In this document: positions 3,375 through 49,144 of the stretch, one piece after another
How positions within the stretch are numbered: the first letter of the stretch is position 1
How the letters are laid out: every line of letters begins with the position of its first letter
Assembly: GCF_024346055.1 (NCBI RefSeq)
Contig: NZ_JAGQCH010000001.1
Location: forward strand, 124,001 to 188,000
DNA: 64,000 nucleotides
Source: Cyanobium sp. Cruz CV13-4-11
Lineage (GTDB): Bacteria > Cyanobacteriota > Cyanobacteriia > PCC-6307 > Cyanobiaceae
Reading direction: 5' to 3'
Translations under genes and position numbers: made by a program
The notes under the pieces: generated by a model
Told to the model about the DNA's origin: nothing
What the model saw: the letters and a program-made list of their open reading frames with translations, nothing else
Databases searched by the model: none

Positions 3375-4571
3375 TCAAGCCTCGTGCACCTCTTGCGGAA
3401 CAGCCTCGAGGCGTTTGAGCCGCCGCTCCAGCAGCAGCAGGCCCACCACGGTGGTGAGCGTCACCATCAGCACAAGGGAGGAGAACTGCACCGCATCGAT
3501 CAGGCCCTGGTTCAGTGCTGTTGTCGCAAAGACCAGCCCCGGCAGGCCGCGGGGGATCAGGCCGAACACCACCAGCCAGCGGTCGACGCCCTCCCGCCTG
3601 TCGTTGCGGTCGATGCCCAGGCCGCAGGCCAGCTTGCTGAGCACGGCCATCACGATCAGGGCCGCCGCCAGGCTCCAGGCCGCCGGCTGCAGCAGGGTGC
3701 CGGCGCTGATGCGCATCCCCACACTGATGAAATACAGCGGCAGGAACACCTCCGAGAGCACGGTCAGCACCCGCTGAACCTCCCCCTCCACCGGCCCCAG
3801 CCGGGCCATCAGCACCCCCCCCCAGAGGGCCCCCAGCAGGCTGGTCAGGCCGCAGGCCTCGCCCACCCAGGCCGAACCGATCAGCAGCATCAGGATCGAC
3901 AGAGCACTGGCGGGCCTGCGGCTGTGATGCCGGCTCCAGTGCGCCACCGCCAGCCAGCTCAGCACCGCCAGCAGCACCCCCAGCAGCGGACCGGCCCAGC
4001 CGATCCCGTGGGTTCCCAGCCGCAGGCCCGCGCTGGCGGTGGCGATCGCCAGCAGGGCGATGGCCGGCAGATCATCGAGGACCGACACGCCCACCAGCAT
4101 CCGACCCGAGGGGGTCTGGATGGCACCCCGCTGGGCGAGGACCCGCAGGGTCACACCGGTGCCGGTGGCGCTCAGCACCGCCAGGCACAGGAGGGTGGTG
4201 GGAATGGAGAGGTCGAACAGACTCCTGAGGGGCCAGAACGCCAGCAGCGGTGTGCAGAAGCTCAGCGCCACCGTGCGCAGGATGGCGGCACGGCGGGAGC
4301 TGAGCAGGTCGCCGCGCACTTCCAGGCCCACCTGGAAGAACAGGGTGAGCACCCCCAGCTCCGTGAGGCCGCTCAGGGGCGCCATCGCCTCGAACGGCAC
4401 CACGGTGTTGCCCAGGACGAAGCCCATGACTAGCTCCAGAATGATCGCCGGCACGGCCAGGCGTGCCATCCAGCTTTCCGAGAGGCGGGCCAGCAGCACG
4501 CCGATCAGCAGGATCAGGAGGGTGCTGAGCAGCGAAGGTTGTGCCATGGCACGCAGTTGCCCAGACGGCAT
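3375..4571 (-). CDS. Cation:proton antiporter, CPA2 (KefB/NapA) family
   Basis: A 398-residue, almost wholly hydrophobic protein with the 12-13 helix layout of Na+/H+ or K+/H+ exchangers. Family marks include LELVMGFVLGNTVVPFE near residue 60, LTELGVLTLFFQVGLE near 85, and VSVLDDLPAIALLA near 165, where the paired Asp of CPA2 exchangers lies. There is no C-terminal TrkA-N domain, so it is shorter than KefB/KefC. The ATG at 4569-4571 is preceded by an AGGGGGA ribosome-binding sequence at good spacing, which favours it over an ATG eight codons later. It is divergent from the KimA-like gene across 81 bp, so shared regulation is possible. Confidence 0.88.
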   Translation of the reverse strand: MPSGQLRAMAQPSLLSTLLILLIGVLLARLSESWMARLAVPAIILELVMGFVLGNTVVPFEAMAPLSGLTELGVLTLFFQVGLEVRGDLLSSRRAAILRTVALSFCTPLLAFWPLRSLFDLSIPTTLLCLAVLSATGTGVTLRVLAQRGAIQTPSGRMLVGVSVLDDLPAIALLAIATASAGLRLGTHGIGWAGPLLGVLLAVLSWLAVAHWSRHHSRRPASALSILMLLIGSAWVGEACGLTSLLGALWGGVLMARLGPVEGEVQRVLTVLSEVFLPLYFISVGMRISAGTLLQPAAWSLAAALIVMAVLSKLACGLGIDRNDRREGVDRWLVVFGLIPRGLPGLVFATTALNQGLIDAVQFSSLVLMVTLTTVVGLLLLERRLKRLEAVPQEVHEA

Positions 4572-4652
4572 TCAAGTCCCCCTGCCACGTTGTGGTGACG
4601 AAGGGATTCAGACCTAGCGTCCTAATTCATCCAGCGGAAGAGCTGAAGTCGC

Positions 4653-6533
4653 ATGCTCATCCTTGACAACCTGCGGCGTCGGCTGATCGGCACCCCCCTG
4701 CCCACCAGCGCCCATCACGAAGAGCGCTACAGCAACGCCGAGGCCCTGGCGATTCTCAGCTCCGACGCCCTCTCCTCGGTGGCCTACGCCACCCAGGAGA
4801 TCGTGCTGGTGCTGGGGATGGGTGGTGCGGCGGCCCTGCCGTTCACCCTGCCGATCACCGTGCTGATTGTGGGGCTGATGCTGATCGTGGCCAGCAGCTA
4901 CCGGCAGACGATCAAGGCCTATCCGCACGGTGGCGGTTCCTACCGGGTCTCGCAGCAGAACCTCGGCCAGACGGCAGGCCTGGTGGCGGGTGCCTCTCTC
5001 TCGATCGACTACGTGCTGACGGTGGCGGTGAGCGTGGCCGCCGGTATCGCCGCCCTCACCTCCTATTTCCCTGGTCTGGCTCCGGCGCGGGTGCCCCTCT
5101 GCCTGCTGGCGGTGCTGCTGGTGATGCTCGCCAACCTGCGGGGGGTGAGCTCCAGCGCCAGGTTTCTGAGCTTGCCCACCTTTCTGTTCATGGGCGCCGT
5201 CGTCACCCTGCTGGTGGCCGGGTTCATCAAGACGGGGCTGGGCCAGCTCCCCCCCCTGCCTCTGGCGGAGCAGCAACGGCTGCTGGCGGCGGCCCACCAG
5301 GGCACCCAGGGGCTGCAGGCCATTGGCCCCCTGCTGCTGATGCGGGCTTTCAGTTCCGGCTGCGCCGCCCTCACCGGCATCGAGGCGATCAGCGACAGCG
5401 TCGCCGCCTTCAAGCCGGTGGAGTGGCGCAACGCCCGTCGGGTGCTCGGGGTGATGGTGCTGATGCTGGCCCTGATGTTCAGCGGCATCAGCGCCCTGGC
5501 CCAGCAGGGCGGCCTGGTGGTGGAGGAGAACGGTCCCACGCTTCTCTATCAGCTGGGGGAGCGGATCTTCGGCGATGGGCCGCTGCTGTTCGTGCTGCAG
5601 CTGGCGACGCTGCTGATCCTGCTGCTGGCCGCCAACACCGCCTATGCGGATTTCCCCAGGCTGGCCGCTTTCCTGGCCCAGGACGGCTTCCTGCCGCGCC
5701 AGCTCTGCTCCCTGGGCGACCGGCTGGTGTTCAGCAACGGCATCTTTGCCCTCAGCGCCCTGGCCGGCCTGCTGCTGGTGATCGTGGATGGCAGCGTCAG
5801 CCGCCTGATCCCCCTCTATGCGGTGGGCGTGTTCATCAGTTTCACCCTCTCCCAGGCCGGGATGGTGGTGCACTGGTGGAAGCTGCAGGACCGGGGCTGG
5901 CGCTCCAGGGCGCTGATCAACGGGATCGGCGCCGCGATCACCGCCGTGGTGGCGGTGATTCTTCTGATCAGCAAGTTCACCCATGGGGCCTGGGTGGTGG
6001 TGGTGGCGATTCCGCTGCTGGTGATGCTGTACCTGCGCATTCGCACCCACTACAACCATGTGTCGAAGCGGCTGCGGATGGGCTCCGACGTCCGACTGAA
6101 ACTGCCGCCTTCGCCTCCGAACGGAGGTGGCACTCCAACAGTCGTTCTAGTGGGCCAGCTGCACCGCGGCAGCTTCGAGGCCCTCTGCTTTGCCCGCAGC
6201 AACGCCAGCGACCTGGTGGCCGTGCATGTGGATCTCGGCGACGGCCGCGCCGAGAAGTTCCGCGAGCAGTGGAGTCGGCAGCTGCCGGACGTTCCGCTGG
6301 AGGTGCTGGAGTCCCCCTACCGCTCCTTGGTGGACCCGGTGGTCGACTTCGTGCGGCGCTTCGAGCGCGAGCACCACAAGGGTCGCCTCTCCTTCTGCAT
6401 GGTGGTGCTGCCGGTGTTCGTCACCCGCCACCGCTGGGAGAATCTGCTCCACAACCAGTCGACGATCCGCCTGCGGCGGGCCCTGCGCGAGCGCGGCACC
6501 CGTGTCGTCACTACGGTCGGCTTCTACCTCTGA
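4653..6533 (+). CDS. APC-superfamily permease, KimA-like (potassium transporter) family
   Basis: A 626-residue protein with about 12 membrane helices and a cytoplasmic C-terminal domain of about 150 residues. The start (RYSNAEALAILSSDALSSVAY) and the YPHGGGSYRVSQQNLG segment near residue 90 match the KimA/YdaO group of APC permeases. The Bacillus subtilis member is a high-affinity K+ importer regulated by c-di-AMP. The C-terminal part (SNASDLVAVHVDLGDGRAEKF) resembles the family's regulatory domain. The following SLC13 gene starts 8 bp after the stop, so the two are probably co-transcribed. Potassium as substrate is inferred from family; general amino-acid permease annotations are the alternative. 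Confidence 0.8.
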   Translation: MLILDNLRRRLIGTPLPTSAHHEERYSNAEALAILSSDALSSVAYATQEIVLVLGMGGAAALPFTLPITVLIVGLMLIVASSYRQTIKAYPHGGGSYRVSQQNLGQTAGLVAGASLSIDYVLTVAVSVAAGIAALTSYFPGLAPARVPLCLLAVLLVMLANLRGVSSSARFLSLPTFLFMGAVVTLLVAGFIKTGLGQLPPLPLAEQQRLLAAAHQGTQGLQAIGPLLLMRAFSSGCAALTGIEAISDSVAAFKPVEWRNARRVLGVMVLMLALMFSGISALAQQGGLVVEENGPTLLYQLGERIFGDGPLLFVLQLATLLILLLAANTAYADFPRLAAFLAQDGFLPRQLCSLGDRLVFSNGIFALSALAGLLLVIVDGSVSRLIPLYAVGVFISFTLSQAGMVVHWWKLQDRGWRSRALINGIGAAITAVVAVILLISKFTHGAWVVVVAIPLLVMLYLRIRTHYNHVSKRLRMGSDVRLKLPPSPPNGGGTPTVVLVGQLHRGSFEALCFARSNASDLVAVHVDLGDGRAEKFREQWSRQLPDVPLEVLESPYRSLVDPVVDFVRRFEREHHKGRLSFCMVVLPVFVTRHRWENLLHNQSTIRLRRALRERGTRVVTTVGFYL

Positions 6534-40782: not shown

Positions 40783-40825
40783 CCGCCTCTCCCGCCATAC
40801 TTCCTGCCTGGAGCACCCCTTAGAG

Positions 40826-42421
40826 ATGGACGCCAGCCTGCCTCTTTCGCTCGCGTCCTCTTCGCTTCCCGCCGTGTTTCCTGAGGGTGCAGCGTTTCCC
40901 TGGCTCAGCCTGATCGTGCTGTTGCCGGCCACGGCGGCCCTGGTGATGCCGCTGCTGCCCGGAGACGGCAGCGACCCCCGCCTGCCGCGCACGTTTGCCC
41001 TGGGGGTGCTCGGGGTGGACTTCGCCCTGATTCTCTGGGTGTTCGCCCGCCATTTCGATGGCGGCCTGGCGGAACTGCAGCTGGTGGAAAGGGTCTCCTG
41101 GGTGCCGGCCCTTGGCCTGGAATGGTCCCTGGCGGCCGATGGTCTTTCGGCCCCGCTGGTGGTGCTCAGCGGCTTGGTCACCCTTCTGTCGGTGGCGGCC
41201 AGCTGGAACATCCGCCTCAAGACACGCCTCTATTTCGGCCTGCTGCTGGTGCAGGCCACGGCCCAGAGCCTGGTGTTCCTCTCCCAGGACTTCCTGCTGT
41301 TCTTCCTGGCCTGGGAACTGGAGCTGGTGCCCGTCTATCTGCTGATCGCCATCTGGGGCGGCAAGCAGCGCCAGTACGCCGCCACCAAGTTCATCCTCTA
41401 CACGGCCACGGCTTCCCTGCTGATCCTGATCAGCGGCCTGGCCCTGGCTCTCTCCGGCGACAGCTTCACCCTCAACCTCAGCGAGCTGGCGGCCCGCTCC
41501 CCCGGGGGCACCTTCGGCCTGCTCTGTTATCTGGGCTTCCTGGTGGGCTTCGGCGTGAAGCTGCCGATGTTCCCGCTGCACACCTGGCTGCCCGATGCCC
41601 ATGGCGAGGCCAATGCACCGGTCTCGATGCTGCTGGCGGGGGTGCTTCTCAAGATGGGGGGCTATGCCCTGCTGCGCTTCAACGTGCAGATGCTCCCCGA
41701 CGTGCACCTGCGGCTGGCCCCGGCCCTGATCGTTCTGGGGATCATCAACATCGTCTACGGGGCGCTGAATGCCTTCGCCCAGGACAACGTCAAGCGCCGC
41801 ATCGCCTGTAGTTCGGTCAGTCACATGGGCTTCGTGCTCCTGGGCATCGGTGCCATCGATGCCCTCGGCATCAGCGGCGCCATGCTGCAGATGATTAGCC
41901 ATGGCCTGATCGCGGCGGCGATGTTCTTCGTCACCGGCGTCTTCTACGAGCGCACCGAGACCCTCTCGATTCCCAACATGGGTGGCCTGGCCAAGGTGCT
42001 GCCGATCACCTTCGCCTTCTTCCTGGCCAGCTCCCTGGCCTCCCTGGCCCTGCCGGGGATGAGTGGCTTCATCAGCGAGATCACCGTGTTCCTCGGGGTC
42101 ACCTCCTACGAGGGCTTCACGATCGGCTTCCGCGTCATCGCCATCGTCCTGGCCGCCATCGGCCTGGTGCTCACCCCGGTCTACCTGCTCTCCCTCTGCC
42201 GCAGGGTGTTCTTCGGTCCACGGATCCCGGCTCTCGCGGTGGTGGGCGACATGAAGCCCCGTGAGCTTGTCATCGGACTCACCCTGCTGGTGCCCACCCT
42301 GGTGATCGGTTTCTGGCCGCGGGTGGCCATCGACCTCTATGAGGCCAGCACCAACAGCCTGGCGGCTGAACTGGCCAGCAGGGGTGCCGTGGCCATGGGA
42401 CGGATGGCCGCCCTGGGCTGA
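40826..42421 (+). CDS. ndhD: NDH-1 subunit D (NdhD1/D2-like)
   Basis: A 531-residue antiporter-like subunit of the thylakoid NDH-1 complex, serving respiration and cyclic electron flow. Proton-channel residues lie in [20 protein letters not shown] (Glu), [20 protein letters not shown] (Lys, His), [18 protein letters not shown] (Lys) and [12 protein letters not shown]. About 14 helices fit the family. The extended [14 protein letters not shown] and the length suggest the D1/D2 group of NDH-1L/L' rather than CO2-uptake D3/D4; this is inference. The 111-bp leader carries a 20-bp palindrome and a hairpin, so it probably has its own promoter. Confidence 0.93.
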
Positions 42422-42481
42422 GCCCCACTCCGGGGCCGGGTGGGCTGAAATGGGGGCTTCCATCGAAGCGGCCGCCCGGCG

Positions 42482-44599
42482 ATGACCAGCACCCTTCAGA
42501 GTCCCCCTGCCCTGCTGGCCGGAGAGGGTCTGCCCCGCTTCGAGGCCATCACCCCCGACCAGGTGCGGGTCCACATTCCTGAGCTTCTGAATGGCCTGCA
42601 GGCCGAGTTGGAGCGGGTGGAGACCGACCTGGCGGCGGCCCCCGCCGCGTCAAGGCCCCTCAGCTGGGCCGAAGTGATGGATCCCCTGCAGCGCCTGGGC
42701 GAACGGCTGCGCTGGAGTTGGGGGGTGGTGAGCCACCTCAACGGTGTCTGCAACAGCTCCGAGCTGCGCGAGGCCCACGCCAGCCAGCAGGCGGCGGTGG
42801 TGGCTTTCGGCAACCGTGCCGGCCAGAGCCGGGTGCTGTTCGAGGCCCTGCGCACGCTCCAGAGCCAGGGGGGTCTGGATGCCACCCAGGAGAGGATCCT
42901 CACGGCGGAACTGCGGGACATGGAGCTGCGGGGCGTCGGCCTGGAGGGCGCCGCCCAGGAGGCCTTCAATGCCGCCAGCCAGGAGCTGGCGGAGCTGGCC
43001 ACCGGCTTCGGCAACCGGGTGCTGGATGCCACCAACAGCTGGACCCTGCGGTTCACCGATCCCGCCGAGGTGGAGGGGCTGCCCGAGAGCCTCAGGGAGC
43101 AGCTGGCCCAGGCCGCTCGCGACGCCGGCGATGGCCAGGCGACGGCGGCCGGGGGGCCCTGGCTGCTGGGGCTCGACATGCCCCGCTTCGGCCCGTTCCT
43201 GAAGTACAGCCGTCGCCGCGACCTGCGGGAGATCGCCTACAAGGCCCACGTGAGCCGGGCCTCGGGCGAAACCGACGGCAACTGGCCCGTGATCGAGCGG
43301 ATTCTCACCCTGCGGCGGCAGCAGGCCCACCAGCTCGGCCATGGATCCTGGGCTGAGGTGAGCCTGGCTTCGAAGATGGCCGGCTCGGTGGCCGAGGTGG
43401 AAGCCCTGCTGGAGGATCTGCGCACCGCCGCCTACCCGGTGGCCCTGCTGGAACTGGAGGCGCTGCGCGCCTGTGCGGCCCGGGAGGGAGCGGCCGAGGC
43501 GGCGGACCTCAAACCCTGGGATGTGAGCTTCTGGGCCGAGGTGCGGCGCCAGGAGGCCTTTGACCTCGACAGCGAGGCCCTGCGGCCCTGGTTCCCCCTG
43601 CCCCGGGTGCTCGATGGGCTGTTCGGACTCTGCGATCGCCTGTTTGGCGTCCGCATCCTCCCGGCCGATGGCGAGGCCCCCGTCTGGCATCAGGACGTGC
43701 GCTTCTTCCGCGTCGAGGACGCCGGCAGCGGCGAGCCCCTGGCGGCCTTCTATCTGGATCCCTACAGCCGCCCAGGCAGCAAGCGCGGTGGCGCCTGGAT
43801 GGACGAATGCCTGGTGCGCTCGGTGAACGGAACCGGCGAGGACGTGCTGCCCGTGGCCTATCTGGTGTGCAACCAGAGCGCGCCGGTGGGGGACACCCCC
43901 AGCCTGATGACCTTCGAGGAGGTGGAGACCCTGTTCCACGAGTTCGGCCATGGTCTCCAGCACATGCTCACCACCGTGGAGCGTCCCCAGGCGGCCGGCA
44001 TCAACAACGTGGAATGGGATGCGGTCGAGCTGCCCAGCCAGTTCATGGAGAACTGGTGCTACGACCACGCCACCTTGATGGGCATGGCCCGCCACTGGCA
44101 GAGCGGCGAACCGCTGCCGGAGCCTGAGTTCGCCAAACTCCGGGCCGCCCGCACCTTCATGGGCGGTGCCGCCACCCTGCGCCAGGTGCACTTCGCCCTC
44201 ACCGACCTGCGGCTCCACAGCCAGTGGACGCCGGAGTGCGGCAGGACGCCGGAACAGCTGCGCCGGGAGATCGCTGCCACCACAACGGTGCTGGAGCCGA
44301 TCGAGGAGGACGCCTTCCTCTGCTCCTTCGGCCACATCTTCGCCGGCGGCTATTCGGCCGGCTACTACTCCTACAAGTGGGCCGAGGTGCTCAGCGCCGA
44401 TGCCTTCAGCGCCTTCGAGGAGGTGGGGCTGGAGAACGAGGCGGCGATCCAGGCCACCGGCCGCCGTTTCCGCGAGACGGTGCTCAGCCTCGGCGGCAGC
44501 CGCCACCCCGGCGAGGTGTTCGAGACCTTCCGGGGCCGGGCCCCCAGCCCGGAGGCCCTGATCCGGCACTCGGGGCTGGTGGCGGCCTCGATAGCCTGA
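42482..44599 (+). CDS. M3 family metallopeptidase (oligopeptidase A-like)
   Basis: A 705-residue zinc peptidase of the thimet oligopeptidase/PrlC group, cytoplasmic, degrading short peptides such as cleaved signal peptides. The zinc site is TLFHEFGHGLQHML near residue 486, with the third-ligand Glu in the following helix region NVEWDAVELPSQFMENW. C-terminal marks are FGHIFAGGYSAGYYSYKWAE and the substrate-tyrosine loop. The N-terminal 200 residues are helical. The ATG at 42482 follows ndhD by 60 bp. Confidence 0.93.
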   Translation: MTSTLQSPPALLAGEGLPRFEAITPDQVRVHIPELLNGLQAELERVETDLAAAPAASRPLSWAEVMDPLQRLGERLRWSWGVVSHLNGVCNSSELREAHASQQAAVVAFGNRAGQSRVLFEALRTLQSQGGLDATQERILTAELRDMELRGVGLEGAAQEAFNAASQELAELATGFGNRVLDATNSWTLRFTDPAEVEGLPESLREQLAQAARDAGDGQATAAGGPWLLGLDMPRFGPFLKYSRRRDLREIAYKAHVSRASGETDGNWPVIERILTLRRQQAHQLGHGSWAEVSLASKMAGSVAEVEALLEDLRTAAYPVALLELEALRACAAREGAAEAADLKPWDVSFWAEVRRQEAFDLDSEALRPWFPLPRVLDGLFGLCDRLFGVRILPADGEAPVWHQDVRFFRVEDAGSGEPLAAFYLDPYSRPGSKRGGAWMDECLVRSVNGTGEDVLPVAYLVCNQSAPVGDTPSLMTFEEVETLFHEFGHGLQHMLTTVERPQAAGINNVEWDAVELPSQFMENWCYDHATLMGMARHWQSGEPLPEPEFAKLRAARTFMGGAATLRQVHFALTDLRLHSQWTPECGRTPEQLRREIAATTTVLEPIEEDAFLCSFGHIFAGGYSAGYYSYKWAEVLSADAFSAFEEVGLENEAAIQATGRRFRETVLSLGGSRHPGEVFETFRGRAPSPEALIRHSGLVAASIA

Positions 44600-44650
44600 T
44601 CCAGGAGTGATCCCTGTCCGGGGATTCTCCCTCCTTGTTGCCGGAGACAC

Positions 44651-46390
44651 GTGGTGGGAGCCCAGCGAATCCTGGTGCTGGGCGGTGGCTTCGCCGGACT
44701 CTGGAGTGCCCTTTCCTCCGCCCGCCAACCTGATCCGCTGGGCATGCTGCCGGCCACCCTCGTCTATGTGAACGCCGGCGCCCAGCTGGGCCAGCTCTCC
44801 AGCCTGAGCGGCCTCCTCTCGCCGGCCCTGCTGGGTTCCTTAGCCCTGCTGGGCCTGCTGCCCTGGATCGTGAAGCTGCTGCTGGGCCGCTGGCGGCTCT
44901 GGCAGCTCTACCGCCCCTGGAGCCGACCCCGCCACTTCGATCGCAACCTGATTGTCATCGGCGCCGGTGCGGCTGGCCTGGGCACCGCCTACATCGCCGC
45001 CACCGTGCGGGCGAAGGTGACCCTGGTCGAGCGGCACCGCATGGGCGGTGACTGCCTGAACACCGGCTGTGTGCCCAGCAAGGCCCTGATCAGCTCCGCC
45101 CGCCTCGCCGCCCGCCTGCGCCACGCCGACCGCTACGGCCTGACCCCCCAGGAGCCCCGGGTGGAGTTGCGTCGGGTGCTGGAGCGGGTGCGCCAGAAGG
45201 TGGCGGCCATCGCGCCCCACGACAGCGTCGAGCGCTACACCGCCCTGGGGGTGGATGTGCGCCTCGGCCAGGCCCGCCTGCTCAGCCCCTGGGAGGTGGC
45301 GATCACCGCCGTCGATGGCACCGAGGCGGTGCTAACGGCCCGCGCCATCGTGCTGGCCACCGGCGCCGCCCCGGTGATCCCTTCGCTGCCCGGCATCGCT
45401 TCGGTGCGGGCGCTCACCAGTGAAACCCTCTGGGACGCCCTGGCCGAGCACCCCTCCCCCCGGCCCAGCCTGCTGGTGCTGGGTGGCGGCCCGATCGGCT
45501 GCGAGCTGGCCCAGGCCCTGGCCCAGCTGGGTCTGCCGGTGACCCTGCTGCAGCGCAACGCCCGGCTCCTGCCCCGGGAAGACCCCGAGGTGGGGGCGCT
45601 GCTGCGCGAGGCCCTGGAGCGCGACGGCGTCCGGGTCCACACCGGTTGCCGGGTGGAGCGCCTCGAGCCTGGTTCCGCCGGGGGCGTCCGCGTGCTGGCT
45701 GCGGTGGACGGCCATACCCTCTGCTTGGAGGCCGACGAACTGCTCTGCGCCGTGGGCCGCCAGGCCCGGCTGGAGGGCCACGGCCTTGAGGCCCTGGGCA
45801 TCCCCACCGGGCGCACCATCGACACCGACCCCCACCTGCAGACCCTCTACCCCAACATCTATGCCGCCGGTGATGCGGCCGGTCCCTGGCAGTTCACCCA
45901 CACCGCGGCCCATCAGGCCTGGTATGCGGCCGTGAACGGGCTGTTCGATCCGGTGCGCTTCGCCGTCGATGGCCGCGTCATCCCCCGCACCACCTTCACC
46001 GACCCGGAGGTGGCCCGGGTGGGGCTGAGCGAAGCGGAGGCGATCGAGCAGGGGGTGGCTTTCGAGGTCACCCGCTTCGAGCTGGCCGAGCTGGATCGGG
46101 CCATCGTTGAATCGGCCGAGACCGGCTTCGTGACGGTGCTCACCGTGCCCGGCAAAGACAGGATTCTGGGGGTCACCATCGTGGCGGAGCAGGCCGGGGA
46201 GCTGCTGGCTGAATTTGTGCTGGCGATGCGATGGAACCTGGGCCTGGGCAAGGTGATGGGCGCGATCCACGCCTATCCCACCCTGGCGGAAGCCAACAAG
46301 TACGCCGCTGGGGCCTGGAAGAAGTCCCATGCGCCCCAGCGAACCCTGGCCCTACTGGAGCGCTTCCACACCTGGCGCCGGGGTGGCTGA
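44651..46390 (+). CDS. Chimeric FAD/NAD(P) disulfide oxidoreductase (mercuric-reductase-like) with a truncated TVP38 segment
   Basis: A 579-residue flavoprotein in three parts. Residues 1-26 (MVGAQRILVLGGGFAGLWSA) look like the start of a different FAD oxidoreductase. Residues about 29-78 (GMLPATLVYVNAGAQLGQLS, then a hydrophobic stretch) match the C-terminal end of a TVP38/VTT membrane domain. From about 95 on (DRNLIVIGAGAAGLGTAYIA) a complete mercuric-reductase/lipoamide-dehydrogenase-like enzyme follows, with GGDCLNTGCVPSKAL redox Cys pair, LLVLGGGPIGCELAQALAQL, YAAGDAAGPWQFTHTA and AIHAYPTLAEANKYAAG. Whole TVP38-oxidoreductase fusions occur in cyanobacteria, so the front was probably lost by a deletion. 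The start is GTG 44651. Confidence 0.8.
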   Translation: MVGAQRILVLGGGFAGLWSALSSARQPDPLGMLPATLVYVNAGAQLGQLSSLSGLLSPALLGSLALLGLLPWIVKLLLGRWRLWQLYRPWSRPRHFDRNLIVIGAGAAGLGTAYIAATVRAKVTLVERHRMGGDCLNTGCVPSKALISSARLAARLRHADRYGLTPQEPRVELRRVLERVRQKVAAIAPHDSVERYTALGVDVRLGQARLLSPWEVAITAVDGTEAVLTARAIVLATGAAPVIPSLPGIASVRALTSETLWDALAEHPSPRPSLLVLGGGPIGCELAQALAQLGLPVTLLQRNARLLPREDPEVGALLREALERDGVRVHTGCRVERLEPGSAGGVRVLAAVDGHTLCLEADELLCAVGRQARLEGHGLEALGIPTGRTIDTDPHLQTLYPNIYAAGDAAGPWQFTHTAAHQAWYAAVNGLFDPVRFAVDGRVIPRTTFTDPEVARVGLSEAEAIEQGVAFEVTRFELAELDRAIVESAETGFVTVLTVPGKDRILGVTIVAEQAGELLAEFVLAMRWNLGLGKVMGAIHAYPTLAEANKYAAGAWKKSHAPQRTLALLERFHTWRRGG

Positions 46391-46393
46391 GGC

Positions 46394-46765
46394 TCATGCC
46401 TGGGAGTGGAGCCCGATCGTGTTGCCCTCGGTGTCGAGCACCAGGCTCATGAAGCCGTAGGTACCGATCGACATCTTGGTTTTGATCACGGTACCGCCGG
46501 CGTCCGCCACCCGGGCTTCCTCCACGGCGCAGTCGTCGCAGTGGAAATAGATCAGGGTGCCGCCTCCCCCCGGGGCCATGCCCTCCATTTTCGCCAGGGC
46601 GCCTCCGGCCCCCACCTGGTCGTTCTGCATCGGGAAGGCGTAGTACTCCATCCCCGCGTCTCCCATCGATTCCAGGCTCACTTCGAACACGGTCTCGTAG
46701 AAGGCCCGGGCCCGGGCCATGTCATCGACGTACAGCTCGAACCAGATGACGGGGTTGACGGCCAT
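46394..46765 (-). CDS. VOC family (glyoxalase/bleomycin-resistance fold) protein
   Basis: A 123-residue protein with the paired beta-alpha-beta repeats of the vicinal-oxygen-chelate superfamily: VIWFELYVDDMARARAFYET at the start, TLIYFHCDDCAVEEARVADA in the middle and FMSLVLDTEGNTIGLHS at the end. Potential metal ligands include Glu10 and the C-terminal His. Substrate unknown. It converges with the oxidoreductase gene 3 bp away and is followed upstream by glmU on the same strand. Confidence 0.88.
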   Translation of the reverse strand: MAVNPVIWFELYVDDMARARAFYETVFEVSLESMGDAGMEYYAFPMQNDQVGAGGALAKMEGMAPGGGGTLIYFHCDDCAVEEARVADAGGTVIKTKMSIGTYGFMSLVLDTEGNTIGLHSQA

Positions 46766-46811
46766 GGATCCGAGGTGACTGCGGGCCGAGATTAGGCCCG
46801 AAATTCGGGAT

Positions 46812-48188
46812 TCAGCCCGCCACCCCCTGCTGCTGCCGGGGGGCGGCGGCGTTCCAGTTCTCCTTCACCAATTGGCGGGCCCGGCCCAGGGCCAGGGCCC
46901 CGGCGGGCACGTCCCTGGTGAGGGTGGAGCCCGCCCCCACCGTCACCCCGGCCCCGAGGGTGATCGGTGCCACCAGCACCGAATTGGCACCGGTCTTGCT
47001 GCCGCCACCGATCACGGTGCGGTGCTTGCGAACCCCGTCGAAGTTGGCGGTGATCGTTCCTGCCCCGACGTTCACATCGGCGCCCAGGTCGGCGTCGCCC
47101 AGGTAGCTGAGGTGGTTGGCCTTGCAGCCCTCCCCCAGCTGGCTGTTCTTGACCTCCACGAAATTGCCGATGCGGCAGTCGGCGGCCAGATGGGTGCCGG
47201 CCCGCAGCTGGGCGAACGGCCCGATGACGCAGCCGCGTTCCACGTGGCTGTCGCGCAGCACCGAATGGACCACCTCCACGTCGGCGGCCAGGTGGCTGTT
47301 CTCGATCAGGCAGCCGGGGCCGATGCGGCAGCCCTCGCCGATGCTGGTGAACCCGCGGAAATGGCACTGGGGCTCCACCAGCACGTCGCGGCCGAAGCGG
47401 GTGTGCTCGCTGAGGGTGCAGCTGGCCGGATCGGTGAAGCTCACCCCCTCCGCCATCCAGTGGCGCCGCAGCCGGTCCTGCAGCACCGCCTCGCCGTGGG
47501 CCAGCTGCTGGCGGTCGTTGATGCCGGCCACCTCATCCGGGTCGGCCACCTCCAGGTGCATGGCCGGCCGCAACAGGGCCACGGTGTCGGTGAGGTAGAG
47601 CTCCCCCTGGTCGTTGTCGCTGCTCAGGCTGGGCAGCACGGTGGCCAGCCTGACCCAGTCGAAGCAGTAGATCCCCGCATTGGTGAGGGTGTTGCCGAGC
47701 TGCTCGGCCGTGCAGTCGCGGTGCTCCACGATGCCGCTCACCTGGCCCGCCCCGTCGGCGAAGACCCGGCCGTAGCCGCCCGGGTCCGCCAGCCGCGCGC
47801 TGAGCAGGGTCACCGCCGCGCCACTGGTGCGATGGGTGGAGAGCAGGCATTCCAGGGTCTCCGGCCGCAGCAGGGGGACGTCGCCGTTGAGCACCAGCAG
47901 ATCGCCCTCGAAGCCCTCCAGCGGCCCGAGCAGCTGCTGCACCGCATGGCCGGTGCCGTTCTGGGGCTGCTGCAGCACGAATTCCAGGCCCTCCACGCCA
48001 GCCAGGGTGTGCTCCACCCGTTCGGCCTGGTGCCCGACCACCAGCAGCTGGCGGTCGGGGGCGAGCCGTTGGCAGCTGCCCAGCACCCGTTCCACCAGGG
48101 TCGCGCCGGCCAGGGGCTGGAGGACCTTGGGCAGGGCACTCTTCATGCGGGTCCCTTTCCCGGCGGCCAGGACGGCAACGGCAAGCAT
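46812..48188 (-). CDS. glmU: Bifunctional GlcNAc-1-P uridyltransferase/GlcN-1-P acetyltransferase
   Basis: A 458-residue enzyme making UDP-GlcNAc for peptidoglycan and LPS. The N-terminal uridyltransferase starts [20 protein letters not shown], with [13 protein letters not shown] and [14 protein letters not shown]. The C-terminal left-handed beta-helix begins near 250 with hexapeptide repeats. The acetyltransferase site is [20 protein letters not shown], followed by [19 protein letters not shown]. Length is typical. It lies directly downstream of the MnmD-like gene on the same strand. Confidence 0.96.
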
Positions 48189-48217
48189 CGGCGGCGGCGG
48201 GGCGTCTGCGCCGGAAT

Positions 48218-49144
48218 CTACCGGTGCCCTTCGGAGCAGCCCAGTCCGCCGGGGTCTTCTGGCGGACGCCGTCTCCCTGGTGGGGCGGGGCTGTGCGCCT
48301 GCTCCCGCCGCCGCCGCTCCAGGATCTCGGCGGCCGTGGCGTTGCCGCTGGGGTCCCGGTAGGGCAGGCCGGCGCGGCTGGCGAGGTGCTCCAGTTCGAA
48401 GGGCTCCAGGGGCCGCAGGGCCGGATGGGGTGCGAAGGGGATGACGCTGGCCACGGTGCCGGCGCTCCAGCGCTCCGGTTCGTCGGCGGGCGGCCGGATC
48501 GCCCGCAGCTCCAGGCCCAGATCCAGCAGGGAGCGACGCACCGCCGCCGCGGAGCTATAGGTGAGCAGCCGGCCGTCGGGCCGCAGCAGCCGCACCAGCC
48601 GCTCCAGGAACTCCAGGCTCCAGAGCTGGGGGCAGCGCTGGGGGGAGAAGGCATCCAGCAGCACCAGGTCGCAGCGACCCGCCTGGGTGTCCAGCAGCCC
48701 CGGCAGCCTGTGGCGGGCATCGCCGAGCTGCAGCCGGGGGCCGCCGGCGAGGCCCTCCAGCCGGCCGATCACCGCGGCGGGCCACTGGGCCCGGAAGCCG
48801 GCGTCCGCCAGGGCCAGGGCCAGGGGCCGGCGGTCCAGCTCCAGGCCCCACCAGTCGAGTTCCAGGCCTGCGGCCGCCGTTGCCGCGAGCAGGGCGGCGG
48901 TGTTGGTGCCGGTGCCGACGGCCATCTCAGCCACCACCAGCTGCCGCCCCGGGGCGAAACGTTCCAGCGCCGCCGGCGCCACGAACTTCTCCTGGGCCTC
49001 CCGCAGGGCTCCGGCGGCATTGTGGAAGCCTTCCCCGACGCCGCAGCTGTAGAGGCTGAAGCTGCCATCGCGCCCCAGCCGGGGCAGCAGCTCGGGCCCC
49101 GGTTCCGGCTCTGCCGTCTTAGTGCCGCAGGCGGGCCAGGTCAT
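48218..49144 (-). CDS. MnmD/MnmC-N-like tRNA wobble-uridine methyltransferase (DUF752)
   Basis: A 308-residue SAM-dependent methyltransferase. The SAM site reads [20 protein letters not shown] near 73. [20 protein letters not shown] is the MnmC-N signature, and [16 protein letters not shown] follows. Family members finish the mnm5U34 modification of tRNA. There is no MnmC-C oxidase domain, so this is the stand-alone form. The ATG at 49142-49144 lies 26 bp inside the 3' end of aroA. The last 40 residues are low-complexity. Confidence 0.82.

Follow-up and report, generated by a model that had tools for sequence, protein, structure and literature searches.

A chimeric gene lies within the 64,000-nucleotide stretch of the Cyanobium sp. 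Cruz CV13-4-11 genome that we analysed (the window). We read it as the outcome of a 1.7-kb deletion that fused two neighbouring genes and left a likely working, membrane-anchored flavoenzyme, and we put the probability of this overall reading at roughly 0.62. The deletion itself almost certainly took place in this genome, the one representative of its species analysed, judging from comparison with related genomes. The chimera is clearly an evolutionary accident, lineage-specific and ordinary in kind if unusually well documented, and does not represent a new type of system.

The open reading frame (44651-46390, forward strand) has a GTG start, is free of stop codons throughout and encodes 579 amino acids. 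Its first residues are VVGAQRILVLGGGFAGLWSALSSARQPDPLG; MLPATLVYVNAGAQLG comes next, ahead of a complete disulfide oxidoreductase (Table 1). At the DNA level, 44638-44715 is 94% identical to positions 2201-2278 of locus L005, at the start of an NDH-2-like flavoprotein gene, while 44737-46390 is 93% identical to positions 4000-5653 of the same locus, inside a gene for a TVP38-oxidoreductase fusion. The protein divides in the same way: residues 2-30 match the start of the NDH-2-like protein, and the remainder, from about residue 28/31 to residue 579, corresponds to the interior of the fusion. In an in-register comparison, likeness to the NDH-2-like gene extends up to ~44735 and likeness to the fusion gene begins at ~44733. 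The NDH-2-like remnant runs from the start codon through the beta1-GGGFAG-alpha1 start of the FAD/NAD Rossmann fold. A preliminary description had proposed a patchwork N-terminus, with a dinucleotide-binding start leading into the last part of a TVP38 domain and then into a complete disulfide oxidoreductase, and the alignments to L005 bear this order out.

Table 1. Positions in the window of the features that make up the chimeric gene.
Feature	Coordinates	Strand	Evidence
Shine-Dalgarno-like GGAGA kept from the NDH-2-like parent	44641..44650	+	GGAGA precedes the start in most congeners
NDH-2-like gene remnant (27-30 codons)	44651..44736	+	DNA identity to L005; codon comparison with 13 congeners
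Junction left by the deletion, at the site of the former CCAGCTGGG repeat	~44729-44740 (repeat 44732..44740)	+	In-register comparison with L005, L006 and L007; repeat in G019
Remaining C-terminal part of the TVP38/DedA (VTT) domain, with its last hydrophobic helix	44737..44932	+	Alignment to L005 fusion from residue 180 onward; structure model
Complete FAD-dependent disulfide oxidoreductase (Pyr_redox_2 and dimerisation domain)	44945..46387	+	Pfam; invariant columns; pLDDT

Pfam searches placed PF07992 at residues 99-423 (E 9e-58) and PF02852 at residues 444-552 (E 2e-28); they detected no VTT domain in the chimeric protein, whereas the intact 730-residue relative from L005 has one (VTT_dom) at 82-195. 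The enzyme carries both the CxxxxC redox pair (CLNTGC, Cys135/Cys140) and the C-terminal His-Glu motif (HxYPTxxE) of the disulfide oxidoreductase superfamily, and C135, C140, H540 and E547 are invariant in 37 sequences. Two very long open reading frames on the opposite strand, at 42650-44728 (692 aa) and 40820-42574 (584 aa), face the M3 peptidase and NdhD-like genes and look like GC-rich mirror frames, not genes.

Both parent genes can be found intact in relatives. We scanned the genomes of about 85,000 species and took the best 80 relatives, in which the match starts between residues 21 and 32 of the chimeric protein (mostly at 30) and extends to the C-terminus; upstream of it, among the matches listed, the frame is open for at least 169 codons, through the VTT domain. 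The nearest three relatives, Synechococcus sp. CS-1332, Cyanobium sp. Aljojuca 7A6 and Synechococcus sp. BO 8801, carry an NDH-2-like flavoprotein gene directly upstream of the fusion gene (L005-L007). An intact orthologous fusion of ~730 aa is present in 16 congeners, 13 of which have the NDH-2-like gene directly upstream, with a 4-bp overlap in 12, and the two parents therefore do stand side by side, as the preliminary description had suggested checking. L129, L133 and L134 (genomes G025, G001 and G011) carry an intact fusion gene but no NDH-2-like neighbour, which shows that the two genes need not occur together. Several of the 16 congeners have, in the same upstream position, the M3 peptidase gene that precedes the chimera in the window, and the downstream flank at 46370-48249, with a glyoxalase-like gene and glmU, is as in L005. 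The join of the two sequences is not a chance one, since in relatives they belong to neighbouring genes and the flanking synteny is kept. The first codons were donated by the neighbour immediately upstream, probably a member of the same operon, and not by an unrelated oxidoreductase, a detail to be added to the earlier account.

The start of the NDH-2-like gene differs slightly among species. The ATG of most relatives corresponds to a GTG at 44654 in the window, one codon after the GTG at 44651 with which the chimeric frame begins. L122 and L124 (G015 and G012) have ATC in place of the ATG of the others, preceded immediately by an ATG codon that aligns with the window's GTG at 44651; the start of this gene shifts by a codon from species to species.

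Compared with its 93%-identical relative (L005 in G019), the chimeric locus lacks 1,700 bp between two copies of the 9-bp repeat CCAGCTGGG. In G019 the copies form codon 28 of the NDH-2-like gene and codon 180 of the fusion gene, where both encode Q-L-G in the same codon phase; in G013, G004, G016 and G014, too, the two sites have at least eight bases in common. The distance from repeat to repeat is 1,700 bp, in frame, in G019 and is the same in most of the others. For these two regions, only 0.055% of random breakpoint pairs fall in an identity of at least 8 bp (probability 5.5e-4). On this evidence, the deletion probably arose through slippage or recombination between the short direct repeats. 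A search for papers on bacterial microhomology deletions that make chimeric genes returned nothing specific. In the ancestor, an NDH-2-like flavoprotein gene would have been followed by a gene for a fusion of TVP38 (DedA, COG0398) with a disulfide oxidoreductase, the stop of the first and the start of the second overlapping by 4 bp; a 1.7-kb deletion then left only the first ~28 codons of the upstream gene and removed the first ~179 codons of the downstream one. Because the repeat copies share a codon phase, the frame has remained open across the junction, so that the ribosome-binding site and start of the NDH-2-like gene now lead into, and are predicted to drive expression of, the back part of the fusion gene. 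The earlier proposal of a deletion joining the start of one oxidoreductase gene to the inside of a TVP38-oxidoreductase fusion agrees with these results, the 1.7 kb being missing only here among the genomes searched and the junction lying on a short direct repeat.

Among COG0398 DedA proteins, fusion to PF07992-PF02852 oxidoreductase domains is reported to be the commonest domain fusion (PMC10127716). Residues 31-579 of the chimeric protein are orthologous to the C-terminal 550 residues of such a fusion (94% identity to L005) and include its oxidoreductase and dimerisation domains, but not a complete N-terminal VTT/DedA domain; the first ~179 residues, which make up most of that domain, are gone, and 27-30 codons of another gene stand in their place. 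The leader corresponds to the beta1-GGGFAG-alpha1 start of type II NADH dehydrogenase-like flavoproteins. The intact NDH-2-like parent matches the solved FAD-dependent oxidoreductase 4nwz (E 2.7e-24) and YjlD (4e-24). Only ~28 of the 415 parent residues are left, the complete FAD and NADH Rossmann domains of a type II NADH dehydrogenase are absent, and neither a complete FAD site nor a complete NADH site could be made from the remaining piece, as the preliminary description had said of the FAD site.

The enzyme shares its two-domain disulfide oxidoreductase build and redox motif with the FAD-containing oxidoreductase (NF004991), mercury(II) reductase (TIGR02053) and lipoamide dehydrogenase (TIGR01350) families, and it scores under the curated cut-off of each (459 of 620 bits, 345.8 against 454.45 bits and 340 of 409 bits, respectively). 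A vicinal pair of cysteines at the C-terminus defines MerA. The chimeric protein ends in ...ALLERFHTWRRGG, without cysteine. We rejected an assignment as mercuric reductase on account of the TIGR02053 score and the missing C-terminal cysteines.

An AlphaFold model built on 37 sequences has pLDDT values of 25-41 for residues 1-30 (below 50 for 1-27) and of ~90 or higher across most of the enzyme. In the model, the TVP38 remnant contains helices at 29-47 and 58-87, the latter long and hydrophobic; the intact protein has a helix at 172-197, and the deletion point lies within it. Hydropathy peaks at ~1.9 in residues 52-79, which makes one membrane anchor plausible. The product is probably a working homodimeric FAD enzyme, predicted to sit on the one remaining hydrophobic helix behind a disordered leader of ~27 residues and lacking both the DedA module and an NDH-2-like partner.

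We assigned substitutions by parsimony on a maximum-likelihood tree of 17 orthologues, in which the placement of this genome is poorly supported (48). The enzyme acquired 15 replacement and 29 synonymous changes on this genome's branch (N/S 0.52), compared with an N/S of 0.59 on other branches and a neutral expectation of ~2.35. By these counts, the enzyme part is under normal purifying selection, which may mostly predate the deletion, as the deletion is not datable within the branch. For the TVP38 remnant, the replacement-to-synonymous count is 5.5:2.5 on this branch against a ratio of 0.57 elsewhere (p 0.06-0.16), which is only suggestive of relaxed constraint. The NDH-2 piece has the unique replacements A22S, L26P and Q28P (numbered from 44654) beside the junction and one unique synonymous change; the residues at the A22S and L26P sites are kept by 13 of 13 congeners, suggesting relaxed constraint and some age since the deletion. 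Taken together, the three sets of counts suggest that time has passed since the deletion, with the leader free to change and the enzyme still constrained.

The same deletion could instead have left a decaying pseudogene, with an unused product and a frame that is open merely because the event is fairly recent. We regard this as possible, at well below even odds. Decay would fit the relaxed constraint in the NDH-2 remnant, and perhaps in the TVP38 remnant, as well as two changes at nearly invariant enzyme sites, V111 to Gly beside the FAD-binding glycine motif and K495 to Thr; it fits less well with ~550 open codons, all catalytic motifs, a normal N/S in the enzyme, a frame preserved over the junction and a retained ribosome-binding site. 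Of the 16 congeners that bear the orthologue, 11 (G002, G004, G006, G010, G012-G016, G019 and G025) have a second TVP38-oxidoreductase gene, ~70% identical and with a frame of ~736 aa. This paralogue is absent from the whole genome analysed here (G000), which is therefore left without any intact TVP38-oxidoreductase fusion; the absence may mean that the pathway is contracting, and it counts in favour of a pseudogene. That the in-frame deletion was itself kept by selection, freeing the oxidoreductase from the DedA lipid-transport module while equipping it with a new start signal and one membrane anchor, is rather unlikely.

Wrong joining of two intact genes during assembly is very improbable. 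The source is a draft genome in 52 contigs, which leaves room for such an error, but it is rated 100% complete, and the lost NDH-2 and TVP38 segments were not found on another contig or elsewhere in the whole genome when we looked for their relocation. A 9-bp repeat is also far too short to mislead an assembler, and the junction copy of CCAGCTGGG has diverged by a substitution of its own, as have the adjacent codons. Some enzymes of the wider family seem to stand alone, with no TVP38 part attached (NF004991 has 509 positions), but an old, selected short architecture common to relatives is scarcely credible here, as all 16 congeneric orthologues are full fusions of ~730 aa, the same short N-terminus was found neither in them nor in the best 80 relatives, and a search that tolerated up to three mismatches found the junction in none of 399 other genomes of the family, making it unique among the 400 covered.

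The locus offers a clean example of the birth of a chimeric gene by deletion in bacteria, with both parents and the repeat visible. With the DedA/TVP38 part cut from a conserved enzyme and the NDH-2-like neighbour lost, it provides a natural test of the enzyme's need for the membrane module. If the deletion was indeed kept by selection, it would amount to a natural experiment in which the enzyme works without its DedA part.
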